A program made the translations under genes and the position numbers. The notes under the pieces are model-generated. The model made no database searches. It was not told where the DNA came from and saw only the letters and a list, made by a program, of their open reading frames with translations. From Rhizobium rhizoryzae (GTDB taxonomy: Bacteria > Pseudomonadota > Alphaproteobacteria > Rhizobiales > Rhizobiaceae), in contig NZ_CP049249.1 in the NCBI RefSeq assembly GCF_011046895.1, positions 1,133,501-1,197,500 on the forward strand: a stretch of DNA of 64,000 nt, read 5' to 3'. Shown piece after piece: positions 10,628 through 59,062 of the stretch (the first letter of the stretch is position 1; every line of letters starts with the position of its first letter).

Positions 10628-11511
10628 GGCGAAATCTCCCTCTTCGCTCCCGTGAAAAATTCCATCAGCGCTGCCTGATCCTCGCCGCCAAGTCCGGCAG
10701 CCGTCAGCATGCGGTGCACCTCCGCACACACGGCGGTCAGCGGCATGGCGGTGTTGGTGCGGCGAGCGAGATCCTGCGCGCCGTTCAGATCTTTCACCAT
10801 ATTGTCGATGCGACCGGTGCGCCGATAATCCTTGGTCACGAAGCGCGGCATATATTCCTGCAGGATGGCGCTGTCAGCACGTCCGCCCTTGAGCGCCTGC
10901 GGAATCTTGGCAGCATTGACCCCGGCATCCAGCGCCAGCTGCGTGGCCTCGGCCACAGCCAGAAAGTTCAAGCCGCACAGCACCTGATTGATGAGCTTTG
11001 TTGTCTGCCCTGCCCCAACCGGCCCCATATGGGTGTAGTTGGAGGAAACATGGCAGAGAACCTTGTGGGCATCGCTCACATCCTGCTCGCTGCCGCCCGC
11101 CATCAGCGTCAACTGACCAATGAGGGCTTTCGGTGCGCCGCCGGAAAGCGGGCTATCCACCCAGCGCAAGCCCTTTTCAGCCGCCTCTGCCGCGAGTTCC
11201 TTTGTCGCGTCCGGGTCGATGGACGACATGTCGATGATAAGGGTGCCGGGAGCCGCGCCTGCCGCGACACCCTTGTCGCCAAATACCGCCAGCCGAACAA
11301 TCTTTGGCGCATTGAGGCTGAGGATGACGAAATCCGAAACGGACGCGGCTTGCGCCGCACTGGCAGCACGCTTGGCGCCAAAGGCCTCAAGTGCTGCGAT
11401 CTTGGCCGGGTCCGGGTCGAACACCGTCAAATGCTGACCCGTCTCGGCAAGGCGCTGACCGATCGCCCCACCCATTGCGCCTGCGCCGATCAGGGCGACC
11501 CGGTTGCTCAT
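10624..11511 (-). CDS. 3-hydroxyisobutyrate-dehydrogenase-family reductase
   Basis: An NAD(P)-dependent beta-hydroxyacid dehydrogenase of 295 residues. The Rossmann motif GAGAMGG is at residues 9-15, the substrate loop SPLSGGAPKA near 137, and the catalytic lysine lies in GQTTKLINQV. Relatives act on 3-hydroxyisobutyrate, tartronate semialdehyde, L-threonate or similar short sugar acids. Within this operon (between gntK, 2-base gap, and the barrel protein) a role in sugar-acid oxidation is likely, but the exact substrate cannot be read from sequence. Confidence 0.9.
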   Translation of the reverse strand: MSNRVALIGAGAMGGAIGQRLAETGQHLTVFDPDPAKIAALEAFGAKRAASAAQAASVSDFVILSLNAPKIVRLAVFGDKGVAAGAAPGTLIIDMSSIDPDATKELAAEAAEKGLRWVDSPLSGGAPKALIGQLTLMAGGSEQDVSDAHKVLCHVSSNYTHMGPVGAGQTTKLINQVLCGLNFLAVAEATQLALDAGVNAAKIPQALKGGRADSAILQEYMPRFVTKDYRRTGRIDNMVKDLNGAQDLARRTNTAMPLTAVCAEVHRMLTAAGLGGEDQAALMEFFTGAKREISP

Positions 11512-11513
11512 CG

Positions 11514-12017
11514 TCAGTTCCTTCCGATCTTGTTCAGAATGTCCCGGACCACCTCATCCAGAGGTTGCCCGATATCGGCACCGACAGACAGTTCGCCTTC
11601 TCCCGGCGGTTCCAGCGTCGCGAACTGATTATCCAGCAGGGAAGTCGGCATGAAATGTCCGGGACGATGCTTCATCCGCTCGGCAATCACCTCTTTCGCG
11701 CCAGTCAAATGAATGAAGAGCACAGGCTCTCCCGCCTTCTCGCGGATCAGATCGCGATAGGAGTGCTTGAGGGCAGAGCAGCCGATGAAGATCTTCCCCT
11801 CATGACTGCCCAGCCGTTCGCCCACAGCGGCAAGCCAGGGCCAACGATCTTCATCGGTCAGCGGAATCCCCGCACTCATCTTCTCGATATTGCTTTTGGG
11901 GTGAAGGTCATCGCCATCCACATAAGGCGCGCCGGTCTTTTCCGAAAGAGCTGCACCGACCGATGACTTGCCGGAGCCGGACACACCCATGATGACGAAC
12001 TTCTGGATATCCGCCAT
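11514..12017 (-). CDS. gntK: Gluconokinase
   Basis: This 167-residue kinase phosphorylates D-gluconate to 6-phosphogluconate for the Entner-Doudoroff or pentose-phosphate routes. The P-loop GVSGSGKSS is at residues 11-19. The family motifs DGDDLHPKSNIEKMSAGIPL, DEDRWPWL and the segment GCSALKHSYRDLIR are all present. The ATG at 12017 shares a base with the idnO stop (TGATG), indicating coupled translation. It supplies the last step for gluconate made by the IdnD/IdnO pair or imported directly. Confidence 0.96.
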   Translation of the reverse strand: MADIQKFVIMGVSGSGKSSVGAALSEKTGAPYVDGDDLHPKSNIEKMSAGIPLTDEDRWPWLAAVGERLGSHEGKIFIGCSALKHSYRDLIREKAGEPVLFIHLTGAKEVIAERMKHRPGHFMPTSLLDNQFATLEPPGEGELSVGADIGQPLDEVVRDILNKIGRN

Positions 12018-43316: not shown

Positions 43317-45518
43317 TCAGGCGGCGCTCGATCCCAGATACTGTTCCGTGAAGCTGGCTTGCGGTCTGCCCAGCAGATAACCCTGGACCGATCCGCAACC
43401 GGCTGCACGCAGCAGATCCAGCTGTTCCTTGTATTCGACACCTTCGGCGGTCACGCTGATGTCCAGTCCCCGGGCCAGGGAAACAGTCGACAGCACGATA
43501 TTGAGACACCGGGTACTTTCCGCGACACCTGAAATGAAGCGGCGATCCAGCTTGATACGCGTGACCGGCAGATCAATCAGATAGGACAAGGATGCGAACC
43601 CGGTTCCAAAATCATCAAGTGCTATGCCGACACCCATCGCCCGAATGGCCGTCAGGATGGTGATCGCCTCCTTGCCTTCGACCTTGTTGGTTTCGGTGAT
43701 TTCTATCTCCAGACGGTCAGCCGAGAGGCCGGTTTCATTGAGTGTGGCACGAATGAAATCCGGTAGATCCTGTCTCAGCAGGCCGATGGCAGAGATATTG
43801 ACAGAGACTGTTGTCCGATCATCCTTGCCTGCCATCTGGCGGCAGGCCTGCTTCAGGACCCAGCGGTCGAGCTCAACGATAAAACCGGTTTCTTCAGCGG
43901 CAGGGATAAATTTGTCGGGCGTAATGAAGCCGCGTTTGGGATGGTTCCATCTCACCAGCGCCTCATAGCCCGAAATTCTACCCTCGCCGATGGCGACGAT
44001 CGGCTGATAATGTACCTCGAATTGGTCCTCGTTCAGGGCAGTCATGAGCTCCAGCTCGATAGTGGAGCGGTGTGATGTTTCCATGGTCATCCCTGGTTCG
44101 AATATATGGAAGCAACCGCGGCCTGCACCCTTCGATGTGTAAAGCGCGACATCCGCATTGCTCAAAATTTGATTGGAGTTTCGGCCGTGTAATGGTGCCC
44201 TGGCAATTCCGATACTGGCACCGATAGACAATGAAAGTTCGTTGATCTGAAAGGGTCTGGAAATTGCCTCCAGAATTCGGGCAGCCAGCCGCTTTGCCTC
44301 CTTTTCGGCGTTCAAGGCTACCACCTGGATGAGCGCGAACTCATCGCCACCGAGGCGGGCGAAAACATCGTCTGGCCCCAGCAATGTGGAAACGCGTTTG
44401 CAGGTCGATATCAACACCTGGTCACCAACAGCGTGCCCATAGGTGTCATTCACGGGTTTGAAGCGATCAAGATCCAGCAACATCACGTTGATGATCTTGT
44501 TTCCGACTTCGACCTCTTCAAGTAAACTATTCAGTGCTTTCTGGAGAAACGCCCGGTTTGGCAGTCCCGTGAGAGCGTCATGATGGGCAAGATGCTCCAG
44601 TTCTCTGGCTGCTTCCCGCATCTGTCTCAAATGTTCACGCTCGACCACTGCCTCCCGCAAGGTCTCGATCGTTGTGGCAAGTTGCCCGATTTCATCCTGT
44701 CGTCGCTGGTACGGCGTGATGTTCCCCGTTTCATCGCGAGCAATCCGTTTGAGCGCCTCGATCAGAACTGGTACGGGTTTGAAAAGGCTGCGGAGGAGCA
44801 AGGCAATCGCGCCGCCGGTGGCAAGCATGATGACAGCGAACGATAAAAGTGAATTGCGGTAAAAGATGCCGCGGGTAGCCATGAGCGATTCCGTCGTCCC
44901 GACCGATGCGGCGACGCCACCCAGCATCTTGCCCTCGGAGGAGCGGATAGGCAGATAGCCGATGTAGTGCTCTTCAGTGCCAATCTTGCCAAAGCCGGTG
45001 AAAAACTCCGTGTATTCTTCTGACGGTCCGCCATTGTCCTGAACGGATAGCGTCAAGCCGGCAGGCCCGCCGTCACTGTCAGTAATGGAAACCAGGCTTT
45101 TCGTCGAAGCATCGTATTGGAGGAGCCACACCTTCTGCTTTGTCTGCACGGACGCGAGCGCGAGAACATCCACGGCCACATAGCCGGTATCCAGCACCGA
45201 CGCATCGTCGCCTATCATGCGGTCGGTGATGATCCGTACAATCTGGCTCGACGGTGTCATGTCCACGGCAACGAAGGTATAGACGCTTCGAATTGCACTG
45301 CTGACGATCTGGATATTGGTGCTCGCCTGCTGTCGCCATTCATCTCGCTGACTTCGCTCGATCATGATCCAACCCGTCGCGGCGCCAGAAATGTAGGCAA
45401 GCGCGACAGCAAATAGCAGGAATGAGGTAACTTTGCCGATGATGGATCGACGCCAATTCAAACGCGTCTTCAGGGCCTTTTGGCCTGCGAATATCGACAG
45501 CATCAGGGTTCCAATCAC
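43317..45518 (-). CDS. Membrane GGDEF-EAL c-di-GMP protein with periplasmic sensor
   Basis: A 733-residue sensor. Two membrane helices (about 27-52 and 222-245) flank a periplasmic Cache-like domain; a HAMP-like linker (about 245-300) follows. The GGDEF domain has RLGGDEF (390-394) and the EAL domain has EAL at 519-521, EITETN, DDFGTG and TAEGVE. Both catalytic sites look intact, so it could make or degrade c-di-GMP. It is the first gene of an operon with two periplasmic binding proteins, as in the NspS-MbaA pair of Vibrio cholerae. Which activity dominates cannot be read from sequence. Confidence 0.94.
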   Translation of the reverse strand: MIGTLMLSIFAGQKALKTRLNWRRSIIGKVTSFLLFAVALAYISGAATGWIMIERSQRDEWRQQASTNIQIVSSAIRSVYTFVAVDMTPSSQIVRIITDRMIGDDASVLDTGYVAVDVLALASVQTKQKVWLLQYDASTKSLVSITDSDGGPAGLTLSVQDNGGPSEEYTEFFTGFGKIGTEEHYIGYLPIRSSEGKMLGGVAASVGTTESLMATRGIFYRNSLLSFAVIMLATGGAIALLLRSLFKPVPVLIEALKRIARDETGNITPYQRRQDEIGQLATTIETLREAVVEREHLRQMREAARELEHLAHHDALTGLPNRAFLQKALNSLLEEVEVGNKIINVMLLDLDRFKPVNDTYGHAVGDQVLISTCKRVSTLLGPDDVFARLGGDEFALIQVVALNAEKEAKRLAARILEAISRPFQINELSLSIGASIGIARAPLHGRNSNQILSNADVALYTSKGAGRGCFHIFEPGMTMETSHRSTIELELMTALNEDQFEVHYQPIVAIGEGRISGYEALVRWNHPKRGFITPDKFIPAAEETGFIVELDRWVLKQACRQMAGKDDRTTVSVNISAIGLLRQDLPDFIRATLNETGLSADRLEIEITETNKVEGKEAITILTAIRAMGVGIALDDFGTGFASLSYLIDLPVTRIKLDRRFISGVAESTRCLNIVLSTVSLARGLDISVTAEGVEYKEQLDLLRAAGCGSVQGYLLGRPQASFTEQYLGSSAA

Positions 45519-45913: not shown

Positions 45914-47536
45914 TCAGGAATTTGGTTCGGAAAAGAGCTCTACGATAAGGTTGCGCAGTTGATCCATTCTCAGACTCTCGGTCTGTACCGGCCTCAAGCC
46001 TGAATTGAAGCCTTGCCGAAGGAATTCGGCTACAACATCCGTGCGCTTTGCAATGATGTGAATTGGGACATCGCGCGTTGCGTCAGGCCCGGTCACGACT
46101 GATGCCGGCTGATGATCACCGATAACAATGAAAATCGCATCATCACCAAAGGTACGGATATAGCTTGCCACCGCCTCCAGCGAATAGTCTATCGTTCGGA
46201 TGTAATGGTCCCGGATGCGGTCGGGGTCTGCCCAGACGAAAGCCGGCGACTCGCCGGACGCCGCCTGGTCATTGAAGGTTTTCCCATCACCGACCGCCTG
46301 CCAGTCGATCATGTGAGCGACTGGCGTCCAGGGCGCATGACTTGAGATGAGGGCAGTCTCGATCATGACATTGCGACGTGGTTGCGGATCTCGAATGAGT
46401 TTTTGAATTGCCGAGAGCGTATATTGGTCTGGCATTGTGATCCAGTTGAAGGGCTGGCCCTGATAACTAAGATCTTTCGCCGCATAGACCCGATCATAAC
46501 CAAAATAGGCGCTTTCCGGCCAATCCAGAGTGATTGCAGGCATGGCCGCCGCCGTCTCCCAGCCTGCATTCTTAAACAAGCGGTTGAGACTGCTTCTGTC
46601 GCTCATGACCAGTCGATCGTAGCGCGCCTGACTGTCGATCCAGAGTCCAGACAACAGTGTGCCATGGGCAAGCCAACTGAGGCCCGCCACAGTCGGCGAT
46701 GTGACCCAGCGACTGGCAATCTGAAACCCGGACTGTTCGAGGCTTTTCTGCATATCCTCAAATCGTGCAGCGATACGCGGCGAGAAACGTGTGTCTTCAA
46801 CAGCACTGCGTCCGTAAGACTCGACGAATATCAGGAAAACGTCCTGTCCCTTGACCCGTCCCATGAGCTCGGTCTTTCCTTTGAAAGGGTCGGATTGTGC
46901 GAGCTCCACCTCAAAGCGGTGCATGTCGGCAATTGCATGCGAGATCAGATCGAGCCGCTGTATCAGATAGGGCGTGGCTTTGGCTTCGACCGTCAACGCA
47001 TGCCGCTCATCTTCGCTTCTTAGCATCAGACCCGAAAGCCCGATCAATGCGGTTGATACCGCCACACAGCCGTAAAGCCTGCGTTTGGATGACCAGCCTC
47101 CCGGAAAGTTGCATGACCAATAAAACAGGCCAATTATGATGAAAAGGCTGAAGGAGCCGGACAGAATGGCAAATGCGCCGACCCAGGTACCAATGCTCCT
47201 GGAAAGCACATTCCAGCCGTCTCCAATCATTTTGATATCGAGGTACGGGTTGAACGGTCGCTGAAACGCCGATTGCGTGCCGATGTCTGCGAGCTTGAGC
47301 AGAACCAGCAAGCTTGCCAGTACAGTGACCACAGCCGCAAGTTTTCCCCGCCACTTGCCGGGCACGATGATGAGACCCAGAGCTATGATCGGTATCTCAA
47401 GCGGGATGGACAGGAATGTCTGGAGATCGAATGCGTCGGGATGTTCCGGCATGTTGATGAATGCGGATAGAAGAACGCAGAACAAAAGAAATCGCGTCGT
47501 GCTTACAAACATGCCAATCATTCCCGCCGTCGTCAT
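45914..47536 (-). CDS. Membrane sulfatase-fold protein (LtaS/phosphoethanolamine-transferase-like)
   Basis: A 540-residue protein with four to five N-terminal membrane helices (to about residue 180) and a periplasmic alkaline-phosphatase/sulfatase domain. Metal and nucleophile sites are FVESYGRSA (glutamate), SPTVAGLSWLAH (candidate nucleophile threonine) and VIGDHQPA (Asp-His). Relatives transfer phosphoglycerol or phosphoethanolamine, or cleave sulfate or phosphate esters. It diverges from the flippase-like gene (less than 100 bases between starts), so it may modify a product of the pterin/lipid locus; this link is inferred. Confidence 0.88.
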   Translation of the reverse strand: MTTAGMIGMFVSTTRFLLFCVLLSAFINMPEHPDAFDLQTFLSIPLEIPIIALGLIIVPGKWRGKLAAVVTVLASLLVLLKLADIGTQSAFQRPFNPYLDIKMIGDGWNVLSRSIGTWVGAFAILSGSFSLFIIIGLFYWSCNFPGGWSSKRRLYGCVAVSTALIGLSGLMLRSEDERHALTVEAKATPYLIQRLDLISHAIADMHRFEVELAQSDPFKGKTELMGRVKGQDVFLIFVESYGRSAVEDTRFSPRIAARFEDMQKSLEQSGFQIASRWVTSPTVAGLSWLAHGTLLSGLWIDSQARYDRLVMSDRSSLNRLFKNAGWETAAAMPAITLDWPESAYFGYDRVYAAKDLSYQGQPFNWITMPDQYTLSAIQKLIRDPQPRRNVMIETALISSHAPWTPVAHMIDWQAVGDGKTFNDQAASGESPAFVWADPDRIRDHYIRTIDYSLEAVASYIRTFGDDAIFIVIGDHQPASVVTGPDATRDVPIHIIAKRTDVVAEFLRQGFNSGLRPVQTESLRMDQLRNLIVELFSEPNS

Positions 47537-47628
47537 CCGCGCCGGTCCATCACAATCAACGTTCCGTATCTTGAACTACGCCCCGATCGTGGATGGCGAT
47601 CACCCTGCTCGAGGAAAGGAGCCCGATT

Positions 47629-48513
47629 TTGAAACTGGTGCGCATCTTCGGTACCGCTCTTGCCTTGGTCCTTGCTGCGTGGGTGGTCTGGCAGACCGAC
47701 TGGAGCATCGTTTTAAAATCTCTCTCATCCGTTTCCCTGGTCCATCTCTCCGCAGGCTTGTTGTTGGTCCAGTTCCAGATCTGCATGTCCGCATTCCGCT
47801 GGCGGTATACTGCCTTGAGCATCGGACAGCCCATCGGGAAGTGGCAGGCCGTTCGCGAGTACTATCTGTCGACAGGTCTCAACCAGTTGCTGCCAGGCGG
47901 GGTCGCAGGGGATGCAATCCGCGCTTATCGGGGACGGGCGCAGGATGGGTCGGGCCTGGCGCGATCTGCTACGTCCGTCATTCTCGAGCGACTGTCTGGC
48001 CAGATCGCCCTTCTGATGTTCGTTTTGGTAGGCCTGCTGCTTTGGCCAGATCGGATCTATGGGACCAATAAATGGGCTGTGTTGGCCTTGGTCGGTGTCC
48101 TGTTGGCAGCCTTGTGCTTGGCGGTTCTTCCAGTCATCCGCACCAGGTTTACAGGGCTTGCAAATGATCTCAGCGCAGCTTTCTGCAGCGTGGGAGCGGC
48201 GGGTTACCAACTGACGACGAGTGTTCTGATCGTTGCATCCTATATTGCGCTTTTCATGCTGTGTGCTGACGCAACCGGGGGGGCTCTGACAATCGGTGCG
48301 GCACTGATGGTTGTCCCTCTCTGCCTGTTGACGATGGTGTTGCCGAGTGGCTTCGGCGGCTGGGGAACGAGAGAGGCTGCGGCTGCAGCTCTCTGGCCAA
48401 TGGTCGGCTACACTCCGGATCAGGGCATTGCAGCAAGCCTGCTTTATGGAGCCGTGGCCATGCTCGGCGCAGCACCAAGTCTAATGCTGTTGTTTACATC
48501 CAAGGACAGATGA
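47629..48513 (+). CDS. UPF0104 / flippase-like membrane protein
   Basis: A membrane protein of 294 residues with about seven to eight helices, in the family of the lysylphosphatidylglycerol synthase membrane domain. The signature LNQLLPGGVAGDAIRAYR and the late LPSGFGGWGTREAAAA are present; there is no aminoacyltransferase domain. Proteins of this type are thought to flip lipids or lipid-linked sugars. TTG 47629 is preferred because AAGGAG lies 7 bases upstream; an in-frame ATG at 47593 has no RBS. It converges on the CDP-alcohol phosphatidyltransferase gene. Confidence 0.87.
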   Translation: MKLVRIFGTALALVLAAWVVWQTDWSIVLKSLSSVSLVHLSAGLLLVQFQICMSAFRWRYTALSIGQPIGKWQAVREYYLSTGLNQLLPGGVAGDAIRAYRGRAQDGSGLARSATSVILERLSGQIALLMFVLVGLLLWPDRIYGTNKWAVLALVGVLLAALCLAVLPVIRTRFTGLANDLSAAFCSVGAAGYQLTTSVLIVASYIALFMLCADATGGALTIGAALMVVPLCLLTMVLPSGFGGWGTREAAAAALWPMVGYTPDQGIAASLLYGAVAMLGAAPSLMLLFTSKDR

Positions 48514-48527
48514 ACGCCCTTCGCGTG

Positions 48528-49340
48528 TCATCCGCGAGCCACGACGGGTTTGGACGACCCTCGGACGAGTGCGACGATATCGACGGCGAATGAATAGACC
48601 AGAGCGATCAAAGCAATGGCTGAAATCCATGCTGATATCGGCGCTTCGACCACCGGCACGAGTACGATACCGAGAGCCAGCACCTGGACCACACAGACCA
48701 GCTTGCGTCGAAACGAGGGCTTGAGAGGCTGATTGAGGGCAGGCAAGGCGAACTGCCCAAGAATGAACATGTATCGCATGGCACCGATGAGCAGCACCCA
48801 TGCCCCAGCCTTGCCCAGAACGAAGGCGGCACAGGACAGCATCAAAATCAGGAATGCATCGACTTCCATGTCGAACTTGGCGCCAAACTCCGACACGTGG
48901 TTGAAGCGTCTGGCGAGGTATCCATCGAACCCGTCAAGAGTGAGTGCGACCACGGTAATGATGAAGACCGCCCAGACCAAGGCTGATCCGTCCGAGTCCG
49001 CAAATGCGTCCGAAAGAAGTATTGTCGCCGCTACGAGGCTCGTCGCGGCAGCACGCACGGCGGTGACCAGATTTGCATAACCAAACCTTGTGTGACGATG
49101 CTGCGGCAAAAAGCAGAGTGACAGCCCGAACATGACAGCAAGCAATCCTGCCGCAGCCAAAGGAACAACTGGCTCCAGCGAATAATGGTAGGCGAGGGTG
49201 ACGCTACCCACCAACGATAAGACAAAGATCACCGCCATCGATTTCAAGGCATCCCTCAGCAGCCTTCGACTAGCGTTGAAGGACTGCAAGGTTGGGAGCA
49301 GACTACTCGAGCTGCGTCTGTCTGAATCAAGAATTGTCAT
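48528..49340 (-). CDS. CDP-alcohol phosphatidyltransferase
   Basis: A 270-residue membrane enzyme that transfers a phosphatidyl or similar group from a CDP-activated alcohol. The family motif DG-xx-AR-x8-G-xxx-D-xxx-D is exact at D139, G140, A143, R144, G153, D157 and D161. Six helices surround it. The acceptor is unknown. The gene follows the GTP cyclohydrolase gene by 16 bases in the same direction, so it belongs to that operon. It may attach a lipid head group, perhaps carrying the cluster's product (inference). Confidence 0.92.
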   Translation of the reverse strand: MTILDSDRRSSSSLLPTLQSFNASRRLLRDALKSMAVIFVLSLVGSVTLAYHYSLEPVVPLAAAGLLAVMFGLSLCFLPQHRHTRFGYANLVTAVRAAATSLVAATILLSDAFADSDGSALVWAVFIITVVALTLDGFDGYLARRFNHVSEFGAKFDMEVDAFLILMLSCAAFVLGKAGAWVLLIGAMRYMFILGQFALPALNQPLKPSFRRKLVCVVQVLALGIVLVPVVEAPISAWISAIALIALVYSFAVDIVALVRGSSKPVVARG

Positions 49341-49356
49341 GACGGCACGTCAATCC

Positions 49357-50463
49357 TTACTCAGCCGCGATCAAGGCGTCGACATCCAGCATATGGCCAG
49401 CGCGCGCGGTTTTCGTGCGGAGGTAAAACTCGTTTTCCGAGGTAACGCGGCCTGTGACGGCACTGCGTGCGTGAACGAGAATGCCCGCATCCGATAGCGC
49501 AGCGATTTTCGTTGGATTATTGGTGTAGACGATCACCTCATCGATATTGAGCAGCTTCAGCATGGCGACAGCAGCCTCATAACGACGATGATCGGCGCCG
49601 AAACCCAACTGGGCGTCCGCATCGATTGTGTCCATGCCGCGGTGCTGGAAGCCATAGGCCCGCATCTTGGCGCCAATGCCCGTGCCGCGCCCCTCCTGAT
49701 CAAGATACAGCAGAACGCCGCCACCAGCCTTGGCCAGCAGATCGAGACCGTTCCGGAGTTGATCACCGCAATCGCATTTCAGCGAGCCGCACAAATCGCC
49801 GGTGATGCAGGACGAGTGGATACGGATCGGCACCGGCTTTGACACATCAGGCTTGCCGACGACGATCGCCACCTGATCCTTCTGCGCCAAACCGCCGCGG
49901 AAAACGACGAAATCCGCGTAGCCAAATGTTTCCAGCGGGACCGGTGTGCGAGCGACGATCTGGAAAGACTGCCGGACGTTGGAAGACGCGGACAGTTGTG
50001 CATGATCCAGGGTGCAGCACGAAGAGAAGCGTTTATCGTCTCTTTCTACTTCTGCGCATACCATGGCTGGAAGCAGCAGCGCCGTGCTGGCGAGCTCCGC
50101 GCTCGCGCTCTCCAGTTCATTTGCCTTTCGCCAGGCGGACAAATGCTTGGTCCCGGGAGTGTAAGCAAGCTCCGACGCCTGATGGAAGCTTACATTGCGA
50201 AGCGGGGCGACGATATCGCTTGCGCGAGTGATACCAAGTTTTTCGGCACGATTGCGGGTGAGAAACAGTTCGTGCTTTTGGCCAACAACGCTCGCAAATT
50301 GATCGTACAGGGCCGGCGAAACGGCATCGAGAGCCAGTACGGCGAGAGCGCGAGATCTATCTTCGAGTATGATCGGCCGACCGAACCGCAACTCCGCTAC
50401 GGCACGCTCTACTTCACGGGAAGGGTCTTTGAACTCGAGAGCAAATGGGCTGTGCTCGGTCAT
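49357..50463 (-). CDS. ribA: GTP cyclohydrolase II with degenerate N-terminal domain
   Basis: A 368-residue protein whose C-terminal half is a complete GTP cyclohydrolase II: zinc cysteines C219, C230 and C232, EGRGTGIG, tyrosine in MRAYGFQ and arginine in GADHRRY. It should turn GTP into the diamino-ribosylamino-pyrimidinone phosphate. The first 190 residues resemble the DHBP-synthase part of RibBA in position but lack its acidic ENEGD-type motif, so that activity is probably lost. ATG 50463 has GGAG 6 bases upstream; ATGs at 50469 and 50475 are alternatives. It is divergent from the dehydrogenase-PTPS operon and co-transcribed with a CDP-alcohol phosphatidyltransferase, unlike a housekeeping rib gene. 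Confidence 0.93.
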   Translation of the reverse strand: MTEHSPFALEFKDPSREVERAVAELRFGRPIILEDRSRALAVLALDAVSPALYDQFASVVGQKHELFLTRNRAEKLGITRASDIVAPLRNVSFHQASELAYTPGTKHLSAWRKANELESASAELASTALLLPAMVCAEVERDDKRFSSCCTLDHAQLSASSNVRQSFQIVARTPVPLETFGYADFVVFRGGLAQKDQVAIVVGKPDVSKPVPIRIHSSCITGDLCGSLKCDCGDQLRNGLDLLAKAGGGVLLYLDQEGRGTGIGAKMRAYGFQHRGMDTIDADAQLGFGADHRRYEAAVAMLKLLNIDEVIVYTNNPTKIAALSDAGILVHARSAVTGRVTSENEFYLRTKTARAGHMLDVDALIAAE

Positions 50464-50588
50464 GATCATCTCCATTGAATTTTCAGCTAGTTACGCAACC
50501 AACCCATTCTTTGGATCGGTCGAAGGTGCATAAATAAAAGTTGATGGTTCAGGGGTGGAAATTCCGAAAGAAGCTCTAATTAGCAGCG

Positions 50589-50624
50589 GCTGACCCGAGG
50601 AAACTCCCGCCTCGCGCCGTCAGC
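50589..50624 (+). promoter_or_regulatory. Structured leader hairpin before the dehydrogenase-PTPS operon
   Basis: An outer stem GCTGAC / GTCAGC encloses an inner stem CGAGG / CCTCG. It lies 31 bases before the ATG at 50655. It may be a regulatory leader or just a chance hairpin; it did not match a riboswitch class known to me. Confidence 0.3.
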
Positions 50625-50654
50625 GACGCCTTAACTTGAACAGATGGTGTAGCA

Positions 50655-51620
50655 ATGGTCGATGCCAAGTCCCTCTGGTGTGAGGCAGCCGGACATCCGG
50701 TGTTGCGGTCAGAGGTTTTGACACCCAGATCAAGCGGCCAAGTGCTTGTCCGAACTCTCTTTTCAGGCATCAGCCGCGGAACTGAAACCACCGTCTTCAC
50801 TGGTAAGGTACCCGAAACGGAATATGACAGGATGCGTGCTCCACATATGTCAGGCACCTTCCCGTTCCCGGTCAAATACGGATACAGCTCGGTCGGACAG
50901 GTTGAGGAGGGTGAGGGGCTTGAGAAGGGGACTACCGTTTTCTGTCTCTTTCCACACCAGAGCCACTACCTTGTCAGAGCCGAGGATCTTGTCGTCGTCC
51001 CGGCCGGATTGCCGGCAGACCGTGCAGTTCTTGCCGCCAACATGGAGACAGCGCTTAATATCTGTTGGGATGCGCAGATCGGGATCGGTAACAGGGTCGC
51101 GGTTTTTGGTTGCGGCGTCGTCGGTCTGGCGGTCGGCTATCTCGCATCGCAGGTGCCAGGTGTGGAATGCACGCTGGTGGATCCGGATGCATCGCGGTCT
51201 GAACCGGCGGAGCGCATGGGCGCTGCCTTTTGCCATCCCGACCAGTTGAAAGGTGAATTCGACATACTGATCAACGCGTCCGGTTCTGGGCAGGCACTTG
51301 CCCAGTGTGTGGATCATGCAGGTCTTGAAGCCAGAATAGTGGAAGCCAGCTGGTATGGTGAGCGATCCGTGACATTGCCGCTCGGAGGCGCCTTTCATTC
51401 ACGCAGGCTTCGTCTCATCAGCTCACAGGTCGGACACGTCTCACCTTTACAGAGACCGCGCTGGACCTATGCGCGCCGGCTTCACAAGGCGCTGGAACTG
51501 TTGTGTCACGACAGACTTGATGTGCTGATCTCCGGGGAGACCGCTTTCGATGATCTACCCCAAGATTACGGCCGTATCCTGACCGATCCCTCCACGCTGT
51601 GTCACCGTATTCGCTACTGA
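50655..51620 (+). CDS. Zinc-free medium-chain dehydrogenase of the pterin-type cluster
   Basis: A 321-residue medium-chain dehydrogenase/reductase. The N-terminal part has SGISRGTETTVFTG where zinc enzymes have a cysteine, so catalytic zinc is probably absent, similar to BchC-like members. The Rossmann motif GCGVVGLAVGYLASQ starts near residue 154. It is the first of four tightly packed genes (dehydrogenase, PTPS homologue, glycosyltransferase, methyltransferase). Substrate unknown; oxidation or reduction of a side-chain hydroxyl of the cluster's product is a guess. Confidence 0.87.
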   Translation: MVDAKSLWCEAAGHPVLRSEVLTPRSSGQVLVRTLFSGISRGTETTVFTGKVPETEYDRMRAPHMSGTFPFPVKYGYSSVGQVEEGEGLEKGTTVFCLFPHQSHYLVRAEDLVVVPAGLPADRAVLAANMETALNICWDAQIGIGNRVAVFGCGVVGLAVGYLASQVPGVECTLVDPDASRSEPAERMGAAFCHPDQLKGEFDILINASGSGQALAQCVDHAGLEARIVEASWYGERSVTLPLGGAFHSRRLRLISSQVGHVSPLQRPRWTYARRLHKALELLCHDRLDVLISGETAFDDLPQDYGRILTDPSTLCHRIRY

Positions 51621-51636
51621 TCAAAAGGAAATTTGC

Positions 51637-52035
51637 ATGTTTGCCGTAGAAGTTCGCGATCACATCATGATTGCTCACAGCCTGCCGAGACCGGTATTTG
51701 GCCCCGCTCAGGGAATGCACGGTGCGACTTTCGTTGTCGATGCCGCCTTCTTCACACGCGATGTTGATGCCGATGGTCTGGCTGTTGATATCGGCCTGGC
51801 GACGCAGGTTCTTTCCAAGGTACTCAAGCCTTTAAACTACCAGAACCTTGATGAGGTTGAGGTTTTCAAGGGTCGCGTTTCGACAACGGAAGTGATCGCC
51901 AAGCATATTTTCGATGAGCTCGCCAAAGCCGTAAAGGCTGGCGAACTCGGTTCCGGAAGCGATCGTATCTGCAAATTGCGTGTTCTTCTGCACGAAAGCC
52001 ATATGGCGCGCGGATGGTATGAGGCCGAGCTTTGA
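51637..52035 (+). CDS. Divergent 6-pyruvoyl-tetrahydropterin synthase/QueD homologue
   Basis: A 132-residue protein of the PTPS/QueD (T-fold) family. H14 (IMIAHSL) and H28 (GMHGATF) match two zinc ligands, and the C-terminal glutamate region HESHMARG is kept. The third zinc histidine of HGHxY is alanine (A30), and the catalytic cysteine that usually precedes the HGH motif is missing (PAQGMHG). It is therefore unlikely to do the standard dihydroneopterin-triphosphate reaction. The stop overlaps the glycosyltransferase start. RBS AAAGGAAA precedes the ATG. Confidence 0.87.
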   Translation: MFAVEVRDHIMIAHSLPRPVFGPAQGMHGATFVVDAAFFTRDVDADGLAVDIGLATQVLSKVLKPLNYQNLDEVEVFKGRVSTTEVIAKHIFDELAKAVKAGELGSGSDRICKLRVLLHESHMARGWYEAEL

Positions 52036-53075
52036 GCCCGTCGCTCGTCTTTGCCTATCCAGGCGATCTCATGACGAAAACCGGCGGTTACGCCTACGAC
52101 CGCCATATCGTCAGCGAATTGAGATCAGCCGGTTGGACGGTCAACATGATGCCGCTTGGCCCAGGGTTCCCCTATCCGCGCGAAAGGGATCTTCGGAATG
52201 CGGAATCGTTGATTGCCGCACTTCCGGATGAAACTGTGCTGCTCGTGGATGGTCTGGCCTATGGCGTCCTGCACGAGGTGGCCGAGCGCGAACGGGAACG
52301 GTTGCGGATTCTGGCGCTCGTACATCATCCGCTGGCGCTTGAGACCGGTCTCGATCCTGCAGACCGCGTCAGGCTGGAGGTCAGCGAACGGCTCGCTCTA
52401 ACCTGCACCAGACATGTCTTCGTAACCTCGCCAGCGACTGCAAAGACGCTGGAAAGCTCCTACGGGCTGACCTCGTCTCACATTACGGTTGTTCTGCCAG
52501 GGACCGAGCCGGTTCAACCTGCGCAGCGCGGCTCAAATGTGCCGCACATTGTCTCGGTCGGTTCGCTGACGCCACGAAAAGGCCATGACGTGTTGCTGCG
52601 GGCGCTGGATACGGTGCGTGAGGTGCCCTGGCGCGCGACGATAGTCGGCAGTGAGAAGCTCGAGCCTTCTACGACGAGAACCCTTCGGGCTCTGGTGAAG
52701 GAGCTTGATCTGGAGGACCGTGTTGTTCTTGCGGGAGAAATTGATGATGTGGGCGAGGTATTCGCGTCTGCTGATCTCTTCGCGCTCGCAAGCCGCTACG
52801 AAGGATACGGCATGGTGTTCGCAGAAGCGCTGGCCCACGGTCTCCCGGTTATCGCCTGTCGGGCAGGGGCAGTTCCGGATGTGGTACCTGCCGGTGCTGG
52901 TCGGCTGGTTCCACCGGACGATCCAGCGGCCTTTGGAACTGCATTACGGGAAGTGTTGCAGGATAATGACCTCGCCGATGAAATGGCGAAAGCGGCTTAC
53001 GCCGCCGGCAAGCAGCTTCCGACCTGGGCGCAGTCGGCATCCGTCCTCTCCGACAGACTGAAGGATTTTGCATGA
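52032..53075 (+). CDS. GT4-family glycosyltransferase
   Basis: A 347-residue retaining glycosyltransferase with a GT-B fold. It has the N-terminal glycine loop TKTGGYAYDRH, the donor-site segment SVGSLTPRKGHDVLLRAL, the E-x7-E-like block SRYEGYGMVFAEALAHGLPVI and GAGRLVPPDD. Translation probably starts at TTG 52032, which overlaps the preceding stop; the first internal ATG (52071) would remove the first beta strand. Donor and acceptor are unknown. Its position suggests glycosylation of a pterin- or pyrimidine-like product. Confidence 0.9.
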   Translation: MSPSLVFAYPGDLMTKTGGYAYDRHIVSELRSAGWTVNMMPLGPGFPYPRERDLRNAESLIAALPDETVLLVDGLAYGVLHEVAERERERLRILALVHHPLALETGLDPADRVRLEVSERLALTCTRHVFVTSPATAKTLESSYGLTSSHITVVLPGTEPVQPAQRGSNVPHIVSVGSLTPRKGHDVLLRALDTVREVPWRATIVGSEKLEPSTTRTLRALVKELDLEDRVVLAGEIDDVGEVFASADLFALASRYEGYGMVFAEALAHGLPVIACRAGAVPDVVPAGAGRLVPPDDPAAFGTALREVLQDNDLADEMAKAAYAAGKQLPTWAQSASVLSDRLKDFA

Positions 53076-53869
53076 GTGGTTTTGATAAAAGCTGGCTCGC
53101 GCTGCGGGAGCCTGCAGATCTCGCGGCGCGCGACCCGGGTCTGGTCGAACACATCGTGGGTTGGCTGCGCCAGAATGCAAGACCGGTGATCGTTGATATC
53201 GGCTGTGGAACCGGTTCGAGCGTACGCGCCTTGGGGCCGATGTTTCCTTCCGCTTTGCAGGTGGACTGGAGGCTGGTTGACTACGATCCGGCGCTTCTCC
53301 GCGAGGCGAGACTCCAACTTGGCGACGATGGTCTTGAGTATCACCAGGTTGATCTCAACCACCTTGAAAATCTGCCGTTGGAAGGTGCTTCTGTACTCTC
53401 AGCCTCCGCATTCTTTGATCTCGCATCGGCGAGGTTTTGCGAGGAGATCGCAGCTCTTGTCGCAAAGCGCCGTTGTGCCTTCTACGCCGCGCTGAACTAT
53501 GATGGCAAAGTAGAGTGGAGCAACCCTCATCCACTCGATCGCGATGTCGTCCGTGATTTCAACCAGCATCAACGCATGGACAAGGGTCTGGGTTCTGCAT
53601 TGGGCCCTCAAGCCGTGGCACATCTGCAGGGAGTGTTTGAAAGCCTTGATTACCGGATTTTCGTCGCCGAAAGCCCCTGGATCCTGGGAGAAGAAGAAGC
53701 GACGCTCCAGCAGGAAATGCTGAAAGGAATGATGCGACCGGTTCTTGAGATCGGCAGGCTTTCGCCTGCCGAAGTCGAGGAATGGTTGGAGTTCAGATTA
53801 GACAGGGTCCGCGAGCGCTCGAGCTGTCGGGTTGGCCATCTGGACATCCTTGCCTTGCCGCGCGCTTGA
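53072..53869 (+). CDS. SAM-dependent methyltransferase
   Basis: A 265-residue class I methyltransferase. Motif I is VDIGCGTGSS (residues 41-50), the acidic residue after strand 2 lies in WRLVDYDPALL, and HQVDLNHL and SASAFFDL follow. The start overlaps the glycosyltransferase stop (ATGA). The last 72 bases overlap the end of the convergent RibD-type gene. The methyl acceptor is unknown; the operon suggests a modified GTP-derived heterocycle or its sugar. Confidence 0.9.
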   Translation: MSGFDKSWLALREPADLAARDPGLVEHIVGWLRQNARPVIVDIGCGTGSSVRALGPMFPSALQVDWRLVDYDPALLREARLQLGDDGLEYHQVDLNHLENLPLEGASVLSASAFFDLASARFCEEIAALVAKRRCAFYAALNYDGKVEWSNPHPLDRDVVRDFNQHQRMDKGLGSALGPQAVAHLQGVFESLDYRIFVAESPWILGEEEATLQQEMLKGMMRPVLEIGRLSPAEVEEWLEFRLDRVRERSSCRVGHLDILALPRA

Positions 53870-54634
53870 GGAAGCAGCTTCGGCCCGGAGGCGGCAGTCG
53901 AACAGGATGTCGCTTCCGAGGCTGTAGACGCTGGCCTGCGGCCGCTGCGCTTCGGACAGGAACTTGATGGGATTGAGCGAGATTCCCGATGGTCCTGACC
54001 CGATGATCAGCGGGGCTATGGAGACGTGCAGGTGATCGATGAGATCCTGCTCGAGAAAACGGGCGATCGTCCGCGCTCCACCCTCAACTAATATCTTGTT
54101 CAATCCGCGGTCTTGCAACACGTTCAGGATGTCATGCGGACAGAGGCCTCGTTCTTTCAGGGGCAATCTTATGACGTCGGCGCGCAGAGCGCGACGCGGC
54201 GCCTCGGCAGATTGGATGACGATGACCGGGGCCCCATCATCCAGCAAAATTCGTTCAGAGCCCGTCAGTTCGGCACGACAATCGATGACGACTCGGACGG
54301 GATCCGGTCCTCTGACCTCGCGAACGGATAATCTGGGATTGTCGGCCTTTACTGTGCCAACACCGACAAGAACCGCATCCATCAGCGCACGGCACCGATG
54401 CAGATGGGCAAGACCATCAGGGCCGGATATGTCGCGGGCATCGCCGAAAGGCGTTGCCACGCGTCCATCGAGAGACTGTCCCACTTGCGCCAGGACGAAC
54501 GGGCCGCGTGCTTCTGCCAAAGGCCCATAGAGCATTGCGGCAGCGCTTCGTTCAATTGAAAGACGGCTGGCTGAACTGTTACGCGCCTGAAGCAAATGGC
54601 CCCAGATCTGGTCCGTCATTTCAACGCGACGCAT
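53798..54634 (-). CDS. RibD C-terminal-type reductase (DHFR-like fold)
   Basis: A 278-residue protein with the RibD reductase domain but no deaminase domain. GVGTVKADNPRLSV (91-104) and ILVEGGARTIARFLE are diagnostic; FVLAQVGQSLDGRVA starts the domain after about 45 extra residues. RibD reductases reduce the ribosyl group of the GTP cyclohydrolase II product to ribityl, which fits the ribA gene in the same region. ATG 54634 has GGGAGG 8 bases upstream. It follows the cytochrome b561 gene by 15 bases. Confidence 0.9.
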   Translation of the reverse strand: MRRVEMTDQIWGHLLQARNSSASRLSIERSAAAMLYGPLAEARGPFVLAQVGQSLDGRVATPFGDARDISGPDGLAHLHRCRALMDAVLVGVGTVKADNPRLSVREVRGPDPVRVVIDCRAELTGSERILLDDGAPVIVIQSAEAPRRALRADVIRLPLKERGLCPHDILNVLQDRGLNKILVEGGARTIARFLEQDLIDHLHVSIAPLIIGSGPSGISLNPIKFLSEAQRPQASVYSLGSDILFDCRLRAEAASSSARQGKDVQMANPTARALADPV

Positions 54635-54649
54635 AAGCAAACCTCCCGC

Positions 54650-55180
54650 TTACAGCATTTTATGCAGCGTTCCGTCTCTCTTGATGAGATGGTGAAACAG
54701 CACGCCAGCGATATGTAACGCAAAAAGGGCAAGAAGGATCCATGCGCTCCAGGTGTGGATGGTAGAAAATGTCGGGGCCAGTGTTGGAAGTTTGCCGATC
54801 GGACTCCATACGGTGAAAAGGCCGAACCAGGAGAGGGGGAAGCCATGGGCGTTCGTTGCGAGAAAGCCACTAACCGGCATGACCACCAGCATCAGATACA
54901 GTAGCGCGTGAACCAGTCTGGCAAGAGCAGCAAGTGGACCTCCGCCGCTGGAAACAGGCGTCTCACTCGTCAATCGTATGCCGATACGAACCAGCATGAC
55001 CCACAGCACGAGGAAGCCGATTGATTCATGCAGCATGTAGAAAGTGAGCTTGAAGGGCTCCGCCGTGAATTTGATCATCATCCCCAGCGGCCAGGTTGCC
55101 AGGACGCCGAGTGCGACGATCCAGTGCAGGGCTCGCATGGGCGCGGGATAGGGTATCGTTGACAAGCGGTCAGTCTGCAT
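54650..55180 (-). CDS. Cytochrome b561-type diheme membrane protein
   Basis: A 176-residue four-helix protein of the bacterial cytochrome b561 family. Heme-ligand histidine candidates are in MRALHWIV, YMLHESIGF and the pair in ALHIAGVLFHHLI. These proteins pass electrons between quinone and partners or oxidise superoxide (CybB). It is co-directional with the RibD-type reductase and divergent from the P450 gene (207-base gap). Confidence 0.92.
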   Translation of the reverse strand: MQTDRLSTIPYPAPMRALHWIVALGVLATWPLGMMIKFTAEPFKLTFYMLHESIGFLVLWVMLVRIGIRLTSETPVSSGGGPLAALARLVHALLYLMLVVMPVSGFLATNAHGFPLSWFGLFTVWSPIGKLPTLAPTFSTIHTWSAWILLALFALHIAGVLFHHLIKRDGTLHKML

Positions 55181-56649: not shown

Positions 56650-58920
56650 TTACGTTACGATCTGGACCGGAACGGCTTTTGATGCCGGGGTTTTCGAATG
56701 TTGATCGTGATGCGAAAGGGGAATCAGCGGGTTGAGCTCCGGGTAATAGCCGGCGATACAGCCATTCGGCAGGTCGAATGGTGTCACCGTCAGGCCGCCC
56801 ACGTAGCGCTTGCGTCCGTCGTCGGCATCTGAGGAGAGGCCGACAACCTGGCCTTCGCGAAGTCCAGCCTTTCGGATCTCCGACGGGCTCATCAATAGAA
56901 CTGAACGCGTACCTTCGATCCCGCGCAGGCGATCGCTGTATCCATAGACGGTCGTGTTGAACTGATCGTTGCTGCGCAGCGTGATGAGGCGGTAGCGTCC
57001 AGCAGAGTCTGCGAACCCGGCCGCCGAGAGTTGCTTGGGAAGGGTGAACTCCGCCTTGCCGCTTTCCGTTTTCCAGATCCGCTCCCGAGCGCTATTGCCG
57101 CGATAGAAGCCACCCGGGGTAAACACTCGGGCGTTAAAATCGTGGAACTGGTCAGGGTAGGTGGCCTCGATCAGGTCGCGGACCTTCGAGTAGTCGCCTG
57201 TCCATTCATCCCACCGCACTTTCGGGTTGGGGGCAAGGGTCTCCTTGGCGATACCCGCTACGATAGCTAGCTCGGACTTCAGGTGTTCGCTCGCGGGCTT
57301 GCGCTTGGCAATCGATCCGTGGATGCAGCTGAAAGTATCCTCGATCGTCACGATTTGCGGGCCCGCCTCCTGCAGGTCTTCCTCGGAGCGCCCAAGACAG
57401 GGCAGGAGATAGGCGATATCGCCGTTGAAAAGATGGCTGCGATTGAGTTTGGTTGCGATCTGGACTGTTAGCCGCATGCGGGGCCAGGCCTCTTCCATGG
57501 CGCCCTGCTCGGGAATGGCCCGAACGAAATTCCCGCCAAGACCAATGAATGCTTTGACGGTGCCGTCCAGAATTCCCTGGCATGCGTCTACCGTGGTCAG
57601 TCCTTTTTCGCGCGGTGCTGTGAAGCCGAACATCTCCTCCAGCCTGTCGAGTGGTACAAGCTCCGGCTTCTCCGATATCCCGACGGTGCGCTGGCCTTGC
57701 ACGTTGGAATGGCCGCGCACAGGTGAGATGCCTGTGCCATCACGACCAATATTGCCTTTCATCAGGAGCAGATTGACGAACATGCCGATGTTATCAAACC
57801 CGTGAACCTGCTGGGTGAGCCCCATGCCATAGATGCCGATGACGCGTTCCGCTTCGACATAGACCTGCCCCGCCTGTTCCAGGGCATCACGCGTAAGACC
57901 GGATTCGTGCTCGATCTGCTCCCATGGTGTTGAGCGCACGAGCTGTTCAAACGCTTCGAAATCATGCGTATGCTGATCTATGAAATCACGATCCAGAACG
58001 CTGCGTCCGCTTGATCGTGCCTCGTCATCCTTGGCCAGAACATGTTTGCAAAGTCCCATGAGGGCCGCAATATCGCCTCCAGCCTTGACCTGAAGATAGT
58101 AGCTGGAGATTTGCGTTTCCTGGCCGGTCAGCATCTCGGTCGGGCTTTGCGGATTGATCATTGCTTCCAGCCCGCGTTCGCGAACCGGGTTGAACGTGAC
58201 GATCCGGCAGCCCCGCTTCACCGCGTCCTGAAGAGGATGCAGGAAACGCGGGCTGTTGGAGCCTGTGTTCTGGCCGAAGAAGAAGATGGCGTCACAGGTG
58301 GAGAAGTCCTCGTAGACCGATGTGCCGACTGGAGCGCCGATGACTTTCTTCAGGGCGACGGACGTCGTCTCATGACACATGTTGGAACTGTCGGGCAGAT
58401 TATTGTTTCCGTAGAGTCGCGCGAACAATGCGTAGAGATAAGATGTTTCGAGGCTGGCTCGACCAGAGGCATAGAAAACCGCGGATTTCGGATCGAGAGA
58501 CTTTAGCTCGCGACCGATGGCGGAAAAGGCTTCATCCCAGGAGCAAGCGACATAAGTGTCCAGCTCGCGATCATAGCGCAGCGGATGGGTAAGACGCCCC
58601 GTTTGTTCGAGATCGTGATCCGTCCAGTCCCGCAGTTCGGAAACCGTATGTTTTGCAAAGAAATCGGGCGTGCATCTGCGCGTCGTAAGCTCCCACAGGG
58701 TCGCCTTCGCACCATTCTCGCAGAACTCGAATGCATTGTGATTGGCAGGCTTCGTCCAGGCGCAGGACGTGCACATGAAACCGCCAGGCTTGTTCTGGTG
58801 GGCGAGCGTATCGAGAACGCCAGGGGTCGGCCATTCCTTGCCGAAAATGCGGGTGATACCTCTCAGCGAGCCCCAACCGCCAGCCGGTCCATCATATTTC
58901 ACGGTATCCTGATCAGCCAC
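56650..58920 (-). CDS. FdhF/YdeP-family molybdopterin oxidoreductase
   Basis: A 756-residue molybdoenzyme of the YdeP branch. FMCTSCAWTKP and FEFCENGAKA form the cysteine region, and SNMCHETTSVALKK, FFGQNTGSNSPR and FNPVRERGLE are cofactor-binding blocks. YdeP-type enzymes have no settled reaction; in E. coli YdeP aids acid resistance. GTG 58920 is preferred because AAGGAG lies 8 bases upstream; an in-frame ATG at 58971 has no RBS. No fdhD or membrane subunit is nearby, so it is probably a cytoplasmic single-subunit enzyme. Confidence 0.93.
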   Translation of the reverse strand: MADQDTVKYDGPAGGWGSLRGITRIFGKEWPTPGVLDTLAHQNKPGGFMCTSCAWTKPANHNAFEFCENGAKATLWELTTRRCTPDFFAKHTVSELRDWTDHDLEQTGRLTHPLRYDRELDTYVACSWDEAFSAIGRELKSLDPKSAVFYASGRASLETSYLYALFARLYGNNNLPDSSNMCHETTSVALKKVIGAPVGTSVYEDFSTCDAIFFFGQNTGSNSPRFLHPLQDAVKRGCRIVTFNPVRERGLEAMINPQSPTEMLTGQETQISSYYLQVKAGGDIAALMGLCKHVLAKDDEARSSGRSVLDRDFIDQHTHDFEAFEQLVRSTPWEQIEHESGLTRDALEQAGQVYVEAERVIGIYGMGLTQQVHGFDNIGMFVNLLLMKGNIGRDGTGISPVRGHSNVQGQRTVGISEKPELVPLDRLEEMFGFTAPREKGLTTVDACQGILDGTVKAFIGLGGNFVRAIPEQGAMEEAWPRMRLTVQIATKLNRSHLFNGDIAYLLPCLGRSEEDLQEAGPQIVTIEDTFSCIHGSIAKRKPASEHLKSELAIVAGIAKETLAPNPKVRWDEWTGDYSKVRDLIEATYPDQFHDFNARVFTPGGFYRGNSARERIWKTESGKAEFTLPKQLSAAGFADSAGRYRLITLRSNDQFNTTVYGYSDRLRGIEGTRSVLLMSPSEIRKAGLREGQVVGLSSDADDGRKRYVGGLTVTPFDLPNGCIAGYYPELNPLIPLSHHDQHSKTPASKAVPVQIVT

Positions 58921-59062
58921 CAGCGCATCTCCTTCTGCCTGCGGTCCAGGCCGAAAGCAGCTCTGTGTCATTGCAGATTGAACGACTGCATTGGCGTGAT
59001 GCTTCGACGGCCCGCTTGGGCAACTCGAAGAAAGCCGGTTGGTTCCCCGCCTGATCTAGCTT

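Follow-up and report, generated by a model that had tools for sequence, protein, structure and literature searches.

We analysed a window of 64,000 nucleotides of the Rhizobium rhizoryzae genome (contig NZ_CP049249.1, positions 1,133,501 to 1,197,500 of the forward strand), in which a block of ten genes at positions 45914-55180 appears to be the local version of a widespread cluster for a GTP-derived metabolite. Nine of the ten had been named in a first-pass annotation of the sequence; all nine are open frames where that annotation had placed them, and Pfam confirmed their families, albeit weakly for the dehydrogenase. The block begins with a membrane protein carrying a sulfatase-fold domain (SULF; 45914..47536, minus strand; Pfam Sulfatase, 7e-08), for which an EptA/LtaS-like role may be proposed, followed by a flippase-like protein of the LPG-synthase transmembrane family (FLIP; 47593..48513, plus; PF03706 LPG_synthase_TM, 9.4e-37) and a CDP-alcohol phosphatidyltransferase (CDPOH; 48528..49340, minus; PF01066 CDP-OH_P_transf, 7.8e-19). 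GTP cyclohydrolase II (GCH II; 49357..50475, minus) matches GTP_cyclohydro2 at 3.4e-46 and the RibA model NF006456 at 487 bits (cut-off 464). Four genes on the plus strand come next: a medium-chain dehydrogenase that lacks the typical zinc motif (DH; 50655..51620; best NCBIfam model BchC, 3.9e-15, below cut-off), a PTPS homologue of the SCO6650 type, i.e., a T-fold protein that has lost its metal motif (51637..52035; PTPS PF01242, 1.1e-19, above cut-off; PDB 3d7j), a GT4 glycosyltransferase (52032..53075; PF13692 Glyco_trans_1_4, 7.5e-33) and a class I S-adenosylmethionine-dependent methyltransferase (MT; 53072..53869; PF13649 Methyltransf_25, 3.1e-06, 28.2 bits, cut-off 27). The block closes on the minus strand with a RibD-C reductase lacking the deaminase domain (53798..54640; PF01872 RibD_C, 4e-39) and a cytochrome b561 (CYB561; 54650..55180; PF01292, 4.3e-30).

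The first-pass annotation had described many of these genes as coupled by overlapping stops and starts. This holds for two junctions, PTPS homologue/GT4 and GT4/MT, each a 4-base stop/start overlap; the other junctions are gapped or convergent. The convergent genes MT and RibD-C overlap by 72 bases, and the remaining six gaps measure 9 to 179 bases (16 for DH/PTPS homologue, 16 for CDPOH/GCH II and 9 for RibD-C/b561). Cytochrome b561 is the tenth member of the block, because plasmid pAt of A. tumefaciens Yub001 carries the same ten genes in the identical order between other flanks, with type I secretion genes and a porin on opposite sides. The ten genes are also present in Rhizobium sp. SL42, together with one extra FkbM-type methyltransferase, and the block borders were set by the ten-gene sets of these two strains. 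Cytochrome b561 holds the same position in the loci L070 and L219. The genes flanking the block in the window, for a cytochrome P450 (55388-56635), a molybdopterin oxidoreductase (56650-58971) and a GGDEF-EAL protein (43317-45518), do not appear in the displayed flanks of either L219 or L070.

We compared 148 loci, comprising the window, 29 loci from sampled Alphaproteobacteria, 80 from named contigs, 8 plasmid loci and 30 actinomycete loci, and counted genes within 9.5 kb on either side of the PTPS homologue where the contig allowed. Some loci reach contig ends, hence the core genes missing in L055 and L059; L219 and L220 stand outside the 148, and L072 was excluded from the pairwise co-occurrence table. 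The cluster families were searched with profiles, and the control families GTP cyclohydrolase I (GCH I), RibE, RibH and RibB by phmmer with single sequences (those of the R. rhizoryzae genome for RibE, RibH and RibB). Of 240 alphaproteobacterial genomes sampled, 30 contain the PTPS homologue, R. rhizoryzae among them (weakest E-value 4.6e-26), and the same protein gave 39 matches in 38 of the 246 genomes of a class sample of a genome labelled Aquiluna, one genome matching weakly. The actinomycete set is 30 of these 39 matches, and its assignment rests on the Aquiluna label and on identities of at least 90% to Streptomyces copies. Some records labelled Beta- and Gammaproteobacteria contain the cluster as well.

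The first-pass annotation had treated the genes as one cluster, and the neighbourhood comparison bears out that they are a conserved unit, in which GCH II and RibD-C are members in many lineages. In the 29 alphaproteobacterial loci the core genes were counted as DH 28, GT4 27, MT 27, RibD-C 22 and GCH II 9, and the accessory genes as CDPOH 8, FkbM 7, YceI 7, b561 6, OpgH-like 6, SULF 5, creatininase 5 and FLIP 0; a looser earlier pass had given 13 for CDPOH and 23 for RibD-C. The 30 actinomycete loci carry DH 30, GT4 30, FLIP 28, MT 26, GCH II 26, CDPOH 20, creatininase 19, RibD-C 11 and SULF 11. The named loci, which are the best 80 of at least 587 confirmed and thus biased to close relatives, carry DH 76, MT 76, GT4 71, RibD-C 55, GCH II 35, b561 33, CDPOH 31, FkbM 31, OpgH-like 31, SULF 27, FLIP 25 and the inositol-monophosphatase family 16. 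Over all 148 loci, DH was found in 142, RibD-C in 94 and GCH II in 74 (a count that still includes the degenerate copy of L051, the fragment of L128 and the divergent copy of L152); in 97 loci DH, the PTPS homologue, GT4 and MT follow one another in this order on a single strand. Chance grouping was rejected, as 495 of the 520 matches to twelve accessory families lie no more than 6 kb from the PTPS homologue and the core recurs across the samples. That the unit exists and that GCH II and RibD-C are tied to it is the part of this work that we trust most, and we regard it as highly probable. Two less frequent genes were seen at L071:5171-5974 and 10997-11887, one of the inositol-monophosphatase family mentioned above and one for a ribokinase-like PfkB protein (3 of the 80 named loci); the former protein could remove the phosphate of the ribityl chain.

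Sequence affinities suggest that the cluster genes have travelled together. In the gammaproteobacterium Pseudohaliea rubra, DH, the PTPS homologue, GT4, MT, RibD-C and FLIP are all closest to alphaproteobacterial cluster copies. A contig labelled Xanthomonas sp. AmX2, for which contamination is possible, has its best match in Alphaproteobacteria for six of the seven families, among them GCH II; its DH is closest to the copy on the contig labelled Aquiluna, with a Rhizobium copy scoring equally. Between families, similarity matrices correlate at 0.53 to 0.86, values to which shared descent contributes and in which it is still included.

The PTPS homologue has its best solved relative in SCO6650 of Streptomyces coelicolor (PDB 3d7j; E 1.2e-36 over residues 1-130), whose crystal paper reportedly appeared in 2008. 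HGA replaces HGH in all 148 loci, as is characteristic of the SCO6650 type. The motifs of PTPS-I (CxxxHGH), PTPS-II (CxxxxxHGH) and PTPS-III (ExxHGH), as defined in PMC5041015, occur in none of 36 aligned members. The protein thus shares its fold family with the QueD/PTPS families (COG0720) but not their motifs. E120 is invariant in the 36 aligned proteins and, by analogy, is expected to hold the 2-amino-4-oxo ring. The R. rhizoryzae genome encodes a separate, canonical QueD elsewhere, and a queuosine step was rejected on the grounds of the motifs and of this QueD. RefSeq names the cluster protein 6-carboxytetrahydropterin synthase; the motif argues against this widespread name, which would need correction. 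A solitary SCO6650-type T-fold gene was also observed on Streptomyces plasmids (L072:9001-9426 and L220:9001-9399), near cupin and MBL-fold genes.

GCH II of the window is a genuine member of its family by sequence, as it keeps the three zinc cysteines and the catalytic-type Tyr. The genome has no other PF00925 match, and nrdR-ribD-ribE-ribH-nusB lies elsewhere with a complete, bifunctional RibD, and ribB stands apart and encodes a RibB without a GCH II domain. The window GCH II may therefore feed riboflavin synthesis as well as the cluster pathway. Given this lack of a further GCH II and the domain make-up of RibB (genome positions C3:1182965, C4:3008761 and C3:1081347), riboflavin supply in this genome depends on the cluster GCH II or on an unknown GTP cyclohydrolase of the sort postulated in PMC9478397. 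The cluster-bearing genome G096 (93% complete) has a single PF00925 match, a RibBA-like protein in the locus L051 (198-1361) in which all three zinc cysteines are replaced (NTR). The number of GCH II genes per genome did not set cluster-bearing genomes apart, many of the large alphaproteobacterial genomes listed having at least two anyway. An ordinary riboflavin operon, which the first-pass annotation had also discounted, was rejected: RibE, RibH and RibB each matched in 1 of 148 loci, all in L051 or its rib operon, and the cluster RibD-C lacks the deaminase domain. GCH I matched in one locus, L060. The closest solved structures of RibD-C, 6p8c and 2azn, are reductases of the 2,5-diamino-6-ribosylaminopyrimidinone 5'-phosphate type, and its scores were 152.8 bits for the TIGR00227 domain (cut-off 150.15) and 117.8 bits for TIGR01508 (cut-off 186.45).

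A variant of the entry step was found among actinomycetes, in a comparison of one plasmid and 26 sampled actinomycete loci. Beside a creatininase-family gene, the Tyr of GCH II was replaced in 20 of 20 cases, by Met (15), Leu (3) or His (2), and it was kept in all seven enzymes without a creatininase. The 20 Tyr-less enzymes form one clade in the GCH II tree, from which L051, L127 and L128 were excluded, so that the pattern probably goes back to a single event. The Met-type SCO6655 of S. coelicolor reportedly halts at the formylamino intermediate. BrbF, a creatininase-family protein of Sinorhizobium meliloti, deformylates exactly this intermediate according to PMC9478397. The pattern is support for the intermediate, short of proof. 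Such a combination of a presumed formylamino-stopping GCH II and a putative formamidase marks 20 actinomycete loci and not the block in the window, which has Tyr and no creatininase; three creatininase-family genes are present in the R. rhizoryzae genome.

The remaining core enzymes indicate decoration. DH scored 18.6 bits for ADH_zinc_N against a cut-off of 31.8 and does not qualify as a zinc-dependent alcohol dehydrogenase; GHE, the zinc motif of those enzymes, occurs in 5 of 142 DH frames. MT has 16 invariant columns among 26 relatives, and its profile found generic methyltransferases only. MT and GT4 would tell the kind of decoration, not its position, and after the unit itself, methylation and glycosylation are what we would trust next.

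At least one of CDPOH, FLIP and SULF, here called the lipid module, was found in 77 of 148 loci, at least two in 62 and all three in 28. CDPOH and FLIP are both present in 47 loci, and one without the other in 10 and 17. These genes adjoin the core in varied order and on either side, across clades and in both phyla. The CDP-alcohol phosphotransferase motif DG-AR-G-D-D (DGxxARx8Gx3Dx3D in full) is kept in 62 of 64 cluster copies. CDPOH is far under the PgsA equivalog cut-off (TIGR00560, 2.5e-10, 41.1 bits vs 109.1); it shares with PgsA the family motif, just as SULF shares with the EptA/LtaS types a sulfatase domain. In SULF, E239, H400, D474 and H475 are invariant in an alignment (A4) of seven relatives, and a profile search of PDB gave no match. 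The lipid link suggested by the first-pass annotation is supported at the level of gene co-occurrence; for the version in the window we put it at about an even chance. An OpgH/MdoH-like glucosyltransferase gene was observed in 38 of 148 loci (e.g., L069:6079-7881), often divergent and preceding the dehydrogenase gene. The lipid module is absent from 36 of these 38 loci and present in two; the Fisher tests applied to these counts treat loci regardless of kinship. There may be two alternative ways of finishing the molecule, one by the lipid genes and the other by the OpgH-like enzyme.

Taken together, the cluster common to Proteobacteria and actinomycetes would turn GTP into a ribitylaminopyrimidine or a pterin, which would next receive methyl and sugar groups and likely be attached to a membrane lipid; we give this reading an even chance of being right, and the chemical nature of the predicted product is not to be trusted at all without chemistry. 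The sequences establish the cluster, its conservation and the composition of each protein, and from these the following steps are proposed. GCH II would open GTP to 2,5-diamino-6-ribosylamino-4(3H)-pyrimidinone 5'-phosphate, a step for which, in many actinomycetes, a GCH II stopping at the formylamino stage and a creatininase-family formamidase would jointly replace the normal enzyme. RibD-C would then reduce the ribosyl to a ribityl chain. The invariant Glu of the T-fold protein would hold the 2-amino-4-oxo ring, and this protein would work together with the dehydrogenase that lacks zinc, perhaps to close a pterin ring. If C1' is reduced by RibD-C and C2' oxidised by the dehydrogenase, the oxidation state of an Amadori product would be reached, and a product at that level could form a pterin ring with the 5-amino group. 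Decoration by MT and GT4 would follow. The CDP-alcohol transferase, where present (in roughly half the loci), would couple a polyol phosphate and a phosphatidyl group, a reaction that PgsA carries out on glycerol phosphate; its weak likeness to PgsA suggests a polyol phosphate substrate, and ribityl phosphate is one. FLIP would turn the lipid over, SULF would act on the outer head group, and cytochrome b561 possibly handles electrons. The lipid step, which is deduced from families, is the weakest part of this route.

Several observations weigh against the proposed route. At its entry, GCH II is found in 9 and RibD-C in 22 of the 29 alphaproteobacterial loci, and GCH II is partly shared with riboflavin synthesis. 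Tyr-type GCH II and creatininase are combined in two alphaproteobacterial loci, and the association seen in actinomycetes probably arose once. The cluster creatininases score best with MftE (below cut-off) and weakly with archaeal ArfB, and PMC9478397 reports a distant homologue of BrbF that did not restore function in a complementation test. RibD-C is absent nearby in 18 of the 20 actinomycete creatininase loci, so reduction there would need the RibD of the genome. Solitary T-fold copies exist away from the cluster. The lipid module is missing altogether from 71 of 148 loci, and FLIP from all 29 sampled alphaproteobacterial ones. The last counts would suit a soluble methylated and glycosylated ribitylaminopyrimidine or pterin, with CDPOH, FLIP and SULF making a separate envelope lipid, and so would the 36 of 38 OpgH-like loci without lipid genes. 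Nevertheless, lipid genes stand beside the core in so many arrangements in both phyla, and their similarity matrices track those of the core (0.82 for GT4-FLIP and 0.79 for GT4-CDPOH, shared descent still included), that we consider a soluble product unlikely.

Members of the T-fold family usually act on GCH I products, which raises the question of whether the product is a pterin glycoside derived through GCH I, comparable to those of cyanobacteria and Chlorobium. The T-fold protein would then act on dihydroneopterin triphosphate, and GCH II would be a riboflavin enzyme that happens to lie nearby. In L060, a GCH I gene (10850-11578) is indeed divergent beside the dehydrogenase gene, with neither GCH II nor RibD-C nearby, which again speaks against the proposed route, and the R. 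rhizoryzae genome has GCH I elsewhere. Nevertheless, GCH I was found in 1 of 148 loci against 74 for GCH II, the GCH II/creatininase pattern speaks against such an origin, and all 36 aligned members lack the metal-binding and catalytic motifs that define PTPS-I, -II and -III; we regard this origin as rather improbable. Alternatively, GCH II and RibD-C form a second riboflavin module supplying flavin precursors, for instance to flavins that are secreted, while an unrelated glycolipid is the product of the remaining genes. As the sole GCH II of the genome, the window enzyme is probably used for riboflavin synthesis too, and two riboflavin modules are proposed for S. meliloti in PMC9478397. The genome, however, has its complete bifunctional RibD with ribE-ribH, the cluster reductase lacks a deaminase domain, and RibE, RibH and RibB are almost never nearby, as counted above, which makes this possibility the most doubtful of those considered. 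Returning to the lipid-linked product, its most far-reaching form is a membrane cofactor or pigment shared by two phyla: a methylated, glycosylated pterin or ribitylaminopyrimidine, made from an early riboflavin intermediate with the SCO6650-type protein as a new enzyme, carried as a phospholipid head group, flipped outward and coupled to the membrane through cytochrome b561. We hold this fuller picture as a tentative possibility.

The predicted first intermediates are those of riboflavin synthesis, whether made by GCH II or by archaeal GCH III with ArfB and a reductase, and with BrbF as a further parallel. The cluster differs from the riboflavin pathway in lacking RibE, RibH and RibB and in having MT, GT4 and T-fold genes instead. 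Clusters branching off the GTP-to-flavin route are of a known kind, and toxoflavin and pterin-glycoside clusters likewise equip a GTP-derived ring with methylation or a sugar. In the open-licence literature of PubMed Central we found no described cluster combining GCH II (or a formyl-stop GCH II plus creatininase), RibD-C, a T-fold protein whose metal site is changed, MT, GT4 and lipid head-group genes, although a subscription paper could describe one. The first-pass interpretation is supported in part: it stands as to a conserved unit including GCH II and RibD-C and distinct from riboflavin and queuosine synthesis, and as to the lipid link in its genomic aspect; the connection to SCO6650 and SCO6655, the creatininase variant, cytochrome b561 and the status of GCH II as the only one in the genome go beyond it.

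The connection to the S. coelicolor gene pair is suggested by gene order. In S. fungicidicus the genes run PTPS homologue, GT4, MT, FLIP, creatininase and GCH II, and the numbering of SCO6650 and SCO6655 (GTP cyclohydrolase II) fits this order, so that both probably lie in the S. coelicolor version of the cluster. In Streptomyces the cluster includes creatininase, and its GCH II is of the Met type, whereas the block in the window has a Tyr-type GCH II, RibD-C, SULF and cytochrome b561 and no creatininase. Expression of SCO6655 runs against predicted riboflavin flux (r -0.61), although that of another GCH II, SCO2687, does so too (-0.52), according to PMC2853524.

As far as the open-licence literature goes, this is an undescribed biosynthetic cluster that crosses phyla, and it may point to a new pathway. 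The product is probably common, since the marker gene occurs in 30 of 240 alphaproteobacterial and 38 of 246 actinomycete-sample genomes. If the proposed route is true, two orphan proteins of S. coelicolor, SCO6655 and SCO6650, the latter deposited as an 'uncharacterized' structure (PDB 3d7j), would find their place in one pathway, and as S. coelicolor is tractable, the roles of these proteins would be directly testable.

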